Assembly (NCBI GenBank): GCA_007693955.1
Contig: RECR01000065.1
Span: forward strand, 1-64,000
Source: Gloeocapsa sp. DLM2.Bin57
GTDB lineage: Bacteria > Cyanobacteriota > Cyanobacteriia > Cyanobacteriales > Gloeocapsaceae
Direction of reading: 5' to 3'
Length of the DNA stretch: 64,000 nt
Shown here: positions 61,834-64,000 of the stretch, in pieces
Numbering within the stretch: position 1 is the first letter of the stretch
How the letters are laid out: each line of letters opens with the position of its first letter
Program-made: the position numbers and the translations under genes
The notes under the pieces: model-generated
What the model was told of the DNA's origin: nothing
Databases searched by the model: none
Seen by the model: the letters and a program-made list of their open reading frames with translations, nothing else

Positions 61834-62256
61834 ATTTGCTATCTCCTTGTTCTACTACTGTACTTATAATACTATTATAATAGTTGCTATTAAATTTATG
61901 TTAACTTTTTCTTTATAATCAAGATTAACTAAGATTTTTATGTTATTATAACTTAAATAATGAAAGTTATTTAACTACCTAACTATTGATTATTAATCTC
62001 AGCCTAGTTGTGGGCTGTCAATCATCTTTGTTGATGGTTAAAATCACTTATTGACAGGGAAGATAGTTTAAAATGCTATTTTATCCCCCTCAAACACCTG
62101 TATCTGTCTTGAATCAGACAGAGTTTACTTAAGTTTACCCAAGGTTAAACTAGGGTATAATCTTAAGTATAAGAATAAGTTATTGACAAAATCACTTGAG
62201 AGCATAACTCAAGTAAAATTCACATCAAATCATAAAAAAAACTAGAGAGAAGAACA
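61834..62256 (+). promoter_or_regulatory. 423-base regulatory gap upstream of the HydE-like gene
   Basis: No gene of reasonable length is seen. It carries TTGACA at 62052-62057 and 62183-62188, a TATAAT at 62156-62161, a palindrome ACTTGAG-N7-CTCAAGT at 62194-62214, and a weaker inverted repeat AGTTTA/TAAACT at 62132-62151. The palindrome lies just 3' of the second TTGACA, the position of a repressor operator. GAGAGAAG precedes the ATG. Confidence 0.55.
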
Positions 62257-63174
62257 ATGAAATTAGTTAAAACAGAAGAAGTTTATGATCTGAAATACTT
62301 AACAAAAAGAGAAATTATCGAACTTTTAAAAGCCCAAGGAAAGTTACAACAAGATTTATTTAAAAGAGCCAGGGAAATCAGATTAGATCAAGTAAAAATG
62401 CGGGGTATCATCGATATTTCTACCGATAGTGAGGACAGAAATTGCTATTATCTAGATCATCAAGCGATTATAGCGATCGCTAAACAAATAAAAGCAGCCA
62501 ATTTAGATACAATTGTTTTACAATCAAGACATAACCTAGAATGGAATAGTCTTTTAGAAGAAGTTATTCCAGTTATCAAAAACGAACTAAATTTAAACAT
62601 AATATTATCTCTAGGAGAGAGAAATAAAGAAGTTTATCAAAAATACGCTAAACTAGGAGTAAACTCATTTGCGCTAGATTTTGGCACATCTAACCCCATT
62701 TTAGCAGCTAACGTTTTCCAAACTCCCCTAAGACAAAGACTACGTTGTCTGAATTTCTTACAACAATTGGGGTTAAAAGTTGAAACAGGAAATATAGTAG
62801 GATTACCTGGACAAACCCTAGAAAATATAGCAGAAGATATTTTATTAACCCTAGAAATTCAACCCAGTGTGATTAATTGTGTACCATTTGTTAATGACTA
62901 TAATAGCCAAGAAGAAATAAACTTAGTTTTAAATACAATTGCTATTTATCGTTTAGGGTTGAAAAAGAGTCTAATTACCTCAGCAAATGCTTTAGAACAA
63001 TTAAAATTAGATGGGAAATTAATGGGAATAAATGCAGGAGCAAATTTATTAAATATTAACTTTACTCCCGCTCAATTTGGTAAACAATATGCAATTCATT
63101 CCCGTCAAAGACTAGTAATTGGATTAGAGCAAGCAGTAGATACACTACAAAGAGCAGGGTTAAAATCAGCTTAA
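62257..63174 (+). CDS. HydE/BioB-like radical-SAM-fold protein lacking the cluster cysteines
   Basis: 305 aa. It follows HydE-type radical SAM enzymes along most of its length: an N-terminal helical lead (LFKRAREIRLDQV), MRGIIDIS at 48-55, DTIVLQS at 84-90, LSLGER at 117-122, RLRCLNFLQQLG, VGLPGQTLE at 181-189 and INAGANLLNINFTP near the end. At the place of CxxxCxxC the protein reads SEDRNCYYLD: only the middle Cys (C63) remains. The fold is kept while the [4Fe-4S] site is lost, so radical SAM chemistry is not expected. Role unknown; no hydrogenase genes surround it. Its end overlaps the FkbM gene by nine bases on the other strand. Confidence 0.75.
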   Translation: MKLVKTEEVYDLKYLTKREIIELLKAQGKLQQDLFKRAREIRLDQVKMRGIIDISTDSEDRNCYYLDHQAIIAIAKQIKAANLDTIVLQSRHNLEWNSLLEEVIPVIKNELNLNIILSLGERNKEVYQKYAKLGVNSFALDFGTSNPILAANVFQTPLRQRLRCLNFLQQLGLKVETGNIVGLPGQTLENIAEDILLTLEIQPSVINCVPFVNDYNSQEEINLVLNTIAIYRLGLKKSLITSANALEQLKLDGKLMGINAGANLLNINFTPAQFGKQYAIHSRQRLVIGLEQAVDTLQRAGLKSA

Positions 63175-64000
63175 TTTCTGCTTAATTTTGCGTAAAATCA
63201 AACTAGAGAGAGAGGAAGTTTCTAGATACTGTTTTTGAGCTTCCAAGCGAGAAATCTGGTTTTTAAGCTGGTAAATTTCCTCTTGTTGAGCTGCAATAGT
63301 AGAATGGCGATCGCGTAAACAAGCGTTAAGTAGAGCACTATGTAATTGTGCGTATCCGAGAGGATCTTTAAGATTACGATCTAAAAGTTTTTCGGGAGAG
63401 AGAAGCAATTCCGGTGCGATACCTTGAAAAGCACAGCGACGCAATTCTTGATAATTATCTTGTAATTCTTGAGTGCGTGGTGAATTAGTATAAGTTAAAA
63501 ACAGATTCACCGCGCCAATTTTATCGATTCTGAGGGGATTTTGTAGGGGGGTTAACCCTTCAGCAGTAATTAACCAACCCCCCATACCCTGAGTGTAAAG
63601 AGTATCTAATACCTTAATTAAAGCATCGCGACGCTCTTGATTGAGATTTTTGGCGGAAACCTCTAACATAATGACACAATCAGGAGAATTAGCTAAAGTT
63701 TGTAAAGCACCTGCTAAAACAGCGAATTCATAACCTTCCACATCGATTTTAACCACATCAACAGAAGATATCTCTAATTTGCTTAAAAAAGCATCGAGAG
63801 GATAAATAGGTATAGTGATTTTCTCTTTGATTTTCGCTCTTCCCGTAGCACCAATACCACTAAAAGAAGATTCTTCAGTCAGATAAAAATCTGTTTCACC
63901 CTCCATCCCACCTAAACAAATTTGATGAGCCTGTATGATATTATTTAAATGATTAAGGGTGATATTTTCTTGTAAAAGCTCATAAGCATAAGGATTAGGT
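63166..64000 (-). CDS. FkbM family methyltransferase, partial (5' end beyond window)
   Basis: The frame continues to the window edge on the minus strand (PNPYAYELLQENITLN near the edge), so at least 277 residues of a longer protein are present. This matches FkbM-type methyltransferases: after the acceptor loop comes a glycine-rich stretch (SSFSGIGATGRAKI), then VDVVKIDVEGYEFAVLAGALQTL with the catalytic core. These enzymes O-methylate sugars in glycolipids and polysaccharides. The C-terminus is a coiled coil (AAQQEEIYQLKNQISRLEAQ) followed by a basic tail. An internal Met at 63906 should not be taken as the start. Confidence 0.88.
   Translation of the reverse strand, partial: PNPYAYELLQENITLNHLNNIIQAHQICLGGMEGETDFYLTEESSFSGIGATGRAKIKEKITIPIYPLDAFLSKLEISSVDVVKIDVEGYEFAVLAGALQTLANSPDCVIMLEVSAKNLNQERRDALIKVLDTLYTQGMGGWLITAEGLTPLQNPLRIDKIGAVNLFLTYTNSPRTQELQDNYQELRRCAFQGIAPELLLSPEKLLDRNLKDPLGYAQLHSALLNACLRDRHSTIAAQQEEIYQLKNQISRLEAQKQYLETSSLSSLILRKIKQKLS

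Follow-up and report, generated by a model that had tools for sequence, protein, structure and literature searches.

The enzymes of the radical-SAM (rSAM) superfamily combine a barrel fold and a shared sequence profile with a CxxxCxxC motif, or a variant of it, that binds a [4Fe-4S] cluster for the reductive cleavage of SAM, and without the cluster there is no radical chemistry. Cluster-less relatives are already known, for example the NCBIfam 'HemN-related non-iron pseudo-SAM protein PsgB' (TIGR04419), and to our knowledge few pseudoenzymes of the superfamily have been described. A search of the literature on pseudo-rSAM proteins, cluster-less rSAM proteins and cyanobacterial HydE, conducted for the most part outside the subscription journals, returned no description of the protein studied here or of a loop excision in the HydE branch.

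The closest comparisons are an intact group of HydE-like rSAM proteins from cyanobacteria and Chromatiaceae (e.g. Desmonostoc, locus L114), the HydE maturase (TIGR03956; T. maritima HydE, TmHydE, 3CIW), BioB, PylB and PsgB. The intact group shares with our protein the barrel and the C-terminal AGAN..NFTP segment, with 47–51% identity to the Desmonostoc protein, but has CxxxCxxC, the equivalent of TmHydE Glu161, a long second loop and mostly a set of partner genes, all of which are missing here. HydE maturase is similar in fold (Z 30.5, 293 residues) and distantly in sequence, whereas our protein lacks the cluster motif, scores below the family cut-off and is encoded in a genome with no HydA and with no HydF or HydG over cut-off. 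BioB and PylB are also similar in fold (Z about 24–26) and match weakly in sequence, but our protein falls far below their cut-offs, lacks the cluster motif and has a different gene context. PsgB, by its model name, represents the same concept, an rSAM-derived protein without an iron site. It belongs, however, to another rSAM branch, and TIGR04419 weakly matched only the HemN-like partner of the intact clusters and was not among the NCBIfam matches to our protein up to E 1.

A HydE-like protein of 305 residues

The window analyzed here is a 64,000-nucleotide stretch of Gloeocapsa sp. DLM2.Bin57. Positions 62257–63174 of its forward strand hold an open frame of 305 codons with an ATG start, so the clean frame reported by a first-pass annotation of the sequence is confirmed. 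The encoded protein scores above the cut-off of the Pfam Radical_SAM profile (PF04055; 42.2 bits, cut-off 29.5, E = 1.2e-10). Its top NCBIfam model is HydE (TIGR03956, E = 2.8e-34), at 118.9 bits, which is below the cut-off of 254.6 for that maturase. In sequence, the solved proteins nearest to it are HydE entries from T. maritima (E = 1.2e-24).

An AF2 model, for which the window protein was combined with 15 relatives, has a mean pLDDT of 78.5 and a pTM of 0.82, with values under 50 for residues 58–61 and 279–286, near the cavity. The model superimposes on TmHydE with Z 30.6 over 291 residues, and the best PDB matches are all TmHydE, ahead of PylB (Z 26.0) and BioB (Z about 25). For the modeled intact relative from Desmonostoc, Z is 41.9. 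Profile, predicted fold and PDB matches together place the protein in the rSAM superfamily, in agreement with the HydE/BioB-like assignment made at first pass. The landmarks VLQS, LSLGER, VGLPGQTLE and AGANLLNINFTP, on which that assignment drew, are all present, while CxxxCxxC is missing.

The cluster loop is deleted

The first-pass annotation described the motif as destroyed and read SEDRNCYYL as its remnant, with Glu for Cys1, Leu for Cys3 and the middle Cys retained. The motif is indeed absent, but its loss was not residue by residue: alignment with intact cyanobacterial relatives rules out a mutated CxxxCxxC and shows instead an in-frame loss of about 13–14 residues (YCQKNCDYCAMRAANK in relatives) that takes out the cluster loop. 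The junction lies at codons 58–64 (SEDRNCY; 62428–62448, forward strand), where about 14 residues including the CxxxCxxC positions are missing or replaced, and the same deletion is found in the orthologue from a second genome of the genus, G001. NCYYL of the window protein aligns with the downstream ERYRL of intact relatives, and the stretch once taken for the motif corresponds to EDLEKYYL in G001 and KGLERYRL in Desmonostoc. Since Cys63 falls at the Arg of ERYRL and is Lys in G001, with no gap in the window/G001 alignment here, no cluster cysteine appears to remain, the middle one included. Gap edges vary by alignment, and one run set Cys63 under Cys2, but G001 has no Cys at the matching residue in any run; judged from the alignments, Cys63 is most likely not a cluster cysteine.

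Among cyanobacterial homologues the same loss was seen in G001 only. CxxxCxxC is kept in all the others that we read, namely about 20 of the clade, a divergent pair (G428 and G667) and 14 HydE-type proteins from distant genomes of the phylum. The motif-keeping homologues occupy another gene context than the window and G001, and the one full-length homologue in the same context, beside an FkbM-type gene in G001, also lacks the motif. As the predicted fold is HydE-like too, neither of the two refuting outcomes named at first pass was observed.

A protein that still acts as an rSAM enzyme, with its cluster held by other ligands, would be consistent with the kept fold and with the barrel landmarks LGER, R161 and GLPGQT. 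This is extremely improbable, as the loop itself is gone, the Glu161 equivalent is lost in both orthologues, and the only cysteines conserved between them, C164 and C208, are 44 residues apart. The same pair of cysteines speaks against the new cluster ligand suggested at first pass.

Other losses and gains in the barrel

Across 18 intact relatives, 90 columns never vary. Both orthologues retain 45 of these, and 30 are lost from both, the latter including the cluster loop and, in TmHydE numbering, R81, R83, D111, E161, G195, T269, M291 and Y306. The Glu matching TmHydE Glu161, invariant in the 18, is replaced by G143 in the window protein (codon at 62683–62685, forward strand) and by Gln in G001. 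The position of TmHydE R159, where intact relatives carry Lys, is lost only in the window protein. Several of the lost residues presumably touch SAM or substrate, lining the cavity, in TmHydE crystal structures. The second active-site loop, PNQNTPLEKLSYG, is also shortened: at 62899–62919 (forward strand) the alignment reads NDYNSQEE-INLV against PNQNTPLEKLSYGNINYT in relatives, and the six-residue gap is common to the window protein and G001. Residues of the N-terminal helix, R49-G50, LG.R, R161 (TmHydE R180), GLPGQT, PF, R232 and the C-terminal AGAN..NFTP are kept.

Eighteen replacements are the same in both orthologues and missing from the intact clade, including the polar residues Y65, N93, E176, N244, N266 and H281. 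Such a pattern, at columns that are otherwise well conserved and in a gene under strong constraint, might indicate that the cavity was refitted as a non-radical enzyme, with acid–base chemistry through E176, N244, N266, H281 and the kept R161. However, there are only two sequences, and identical replacements, which a hand count finds in 12 of the 24 ungapped lost columns, are no commoner than the overall identity of 65% predicts. We consider a refitted enzyme unlikely.

Orthologues and phylogenetic position

In 100 related genomes, close orthologues occur in the same genus only, in G001 and G002. The G001 protein is full length, 65% identical to the window protein and has the deletion in common with it, and G002 (completeness 77%) contributes only the C-terminal 27 residues, at the edge of a contig. 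An intact HydE-like copy was not found in the window genome (G000) or in G001. Whole-genome profile searches of overlapping samples of the phylum (386 members), order (391) and class (390), which are not biased to intact proteins, recovered intact relatives in Desmonostoc, Anabaena FACHB-1237, Gloeomargarita and others, and no further deleted member. Weak matches in other relatives (23–30% identity) resemble biotin synthases by length and score. A scan of genome contigs with the deleted pair as query gave no matches; for the intact relatives, the scan relied on N[YF]CQKNC and FLQ[AS]GQDP as patterns, which biases it towards intact proteins.

In the maximum-likelihood tree, the window and G001 proteins form one clade (100/100) nested inside the intact clade (100/100), so that by position the window protein belongs to the HydE-like cluster proteins of cyanobacteria. 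The stem of the deleted pair, 0.85 changes per column, is longer than most. Branching within the intact clade consists of open forks, and the tree does not fix the place of the deleted pair there. On the best reading of these sequences, the deletion arose in the ancestor of the two sampled species and is restricted to the genus.

Purifying selection on the deleted form

Between the window and G001 genes, omega is 0.077 in the GY94 pair model (2dlnL 174.6 against omega 1), and intact pairs give 0.078–0.165. With dS about 1.7 between the window and G001 genes, synonymous sites approach saturation and omega is rough; neutrality is nonetheless excluded. As the deletion is common to both species, the constraint measured between them postdates it, provided that it arose once. 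Full-length sequences with the deletion number two, and constraint in a new role is read from that one pair.

The gene could be a HydE-like gene without its pathway that is open by chance and heading for loss, as the pathway partners were not found in G000, G001 or G002, the stem branch is long, and G002 shows only a 27-residue tail, at a contig edge. Against decay stand the strong purifying selection and frames free of stops and frameshifts in both species, with 65% identity between their proteins. The constraint also resembles that on the neighboring FkbM-type gene (Nei-Gojobori, NG86, omega 0.144 versus 0.168). We consider decay very improbable. A kept predicted fold, a lost cluster site and purifying selection mark the protein as a putative rSAM pseudoenzyme.

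Gene context and missing partners

The HydE-like gene stands alone, with no shared operon. Tail to tail with it, with a 9-bp overlap, lies an FkbM-type methyltransferase gene, named by eye (63166–64000, reverse strand), which runs past the window end and encodes 400 residues in the whole contig; the same neighbor is present, also tail to tail, in G001 and G002. The upstream neighbors in G000 are unlike those in G001. An inverted repeat, TCACTTGAG-N7-CTCAAGTAA, is located at 62192–62216, about 40 bp 5' of the start codon. It may be operator-like or a terminator for the other strand, and visual inspection showed none 5' of the G001 orthologue. A promoter scan stayed at chance level.

The intact relatives lie mostly in a gene cluster that encodes an LTXXQ (Spy/CpxP-like) protein, the HydE-like rSAM protein, a membrane-anchored methyltransferase, an EamA transporter and a HemN-like rSAM protein, in varying order and content. 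The methyltransferase and HemN-like partners were not found at the window locus or genome-wide: in G000, G001 and G002 nothing matches the cluster methyltransferase, and matches to the HemN-like partner are only generic, of HemN/HemW level, with none of orthologue level. The HemN/HemW-family proteins in the genome, together with the kept fold and terminal segments, would allow the window protein to be the dead subunit of another rSAM protein, functional only in a hetero-oligomer. That arrangement is distinctly improbable, given that the gene is alone, with no shared operon, and that G000 and G001 have no intact HydE-like copy.

The first-pass annotation held that the ancestral role was not obvious. 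Hydrogenase maturation is improbable: HydA is absent and neither HydF nor HydG is found over cut-off in G000, G001 and G002, and the same holds in five cyanobacterial carriers of the intact motif (G179, G168, G166, G298 and G428). For this reason the intact branch is unlikely to serve hydrogenases. The ancestral role was probably that of the uncharacterized gene cluster.

A proposed non-catalytic role

We propose, at a probability of roughly two in three, that the window protein is an rSAM pseudoenzyme with a non-catalytic binding or regulatory role. The ancestor would have been a HydE-like rSAM enzyme of the Spy-like, methyltransferase, EamA and HemN-like rSAM gene cluster. In the ancestor of the two sampled species, the cluster loop would have been deleted in frame and the second loop shortened, with changes at several residues that are otherwise invariant. 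Without the [4Fe-4S] site, reductive cleavage of SAM should be impossible, and the barrel with its altered cavity may now bind a small molecule, a partner protein or both, as a sensor, carrier or regulator. This account would combine loss of the pathway, excision of the cluster site and retention of the barrel for binding. Loss of the partner genes argues for a new role outside the old pathway, and the protein probably does a new, undescribed non-radical job. The binding or scaffold role put forward at first pass is the most economical reading of a cluster-less HydE/BioB-like fold.

A more specific version, that excision of the cluster loop turned the barrel into a non-radical enzyme or a small-molecule sensor with a new polar pocket (Y65, N93, E176, N244, N266 and H281), is rather doubtful. 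If true, it would be a rare case that allows a converted form to be set directly against its intact parent clade. For the proposed pseudoenzyme more generally, close intact relatives, a clean common deletion and measurable constraint make the conversion of a radical enzyme into a non-radical protein directly open to study.

The gene cluster of the intact relatives and related loci

The window protein also points to the uncharacterized cluster around its intact homologue, in cyanobacteria and sulfur bacteria whose genomes have no [FeFe]-hydrogenase that we found, and this cluster is perhaps of greater interest than the protein itself. The cluster of LTXXQ/Spy-like, HydE-like rSAM, membrane methyltransferase, EamA and HemN-like rSAM genes is conserved at L114:6994–12825 and also in L115–L132; its carriers are diverse cyanobacteria, Chromatiaceae, a Thiosymbion symbiont and a Methanothrix MAG.

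Two large-genome cyanobacteria carry another, divergent HydE-like group, which has an intact motif (ITNACERSCNYC) and lies outside the conserved cluster (L053:9756–10928 and G667:C1:1851463–1852488). The same-strand genes upstream of it in L053 appear by eye to encode a methyltransferase and an adenylating enzyme. In Desmonostoc, a HydG/ThiH-like rSAM gene (L058; G179:C19:5805–6791), at 89.9 bits and below cut-off, adjoins a second HemN-like match, on a separate contig from the HydE-like cluster. A pair of HydE-like and methyltransferase genes also occurs at L123:2734–4867, in a MAG whose title names Borreliella garinii (isolate SulCav), a species label that is probably wrong for this contig.
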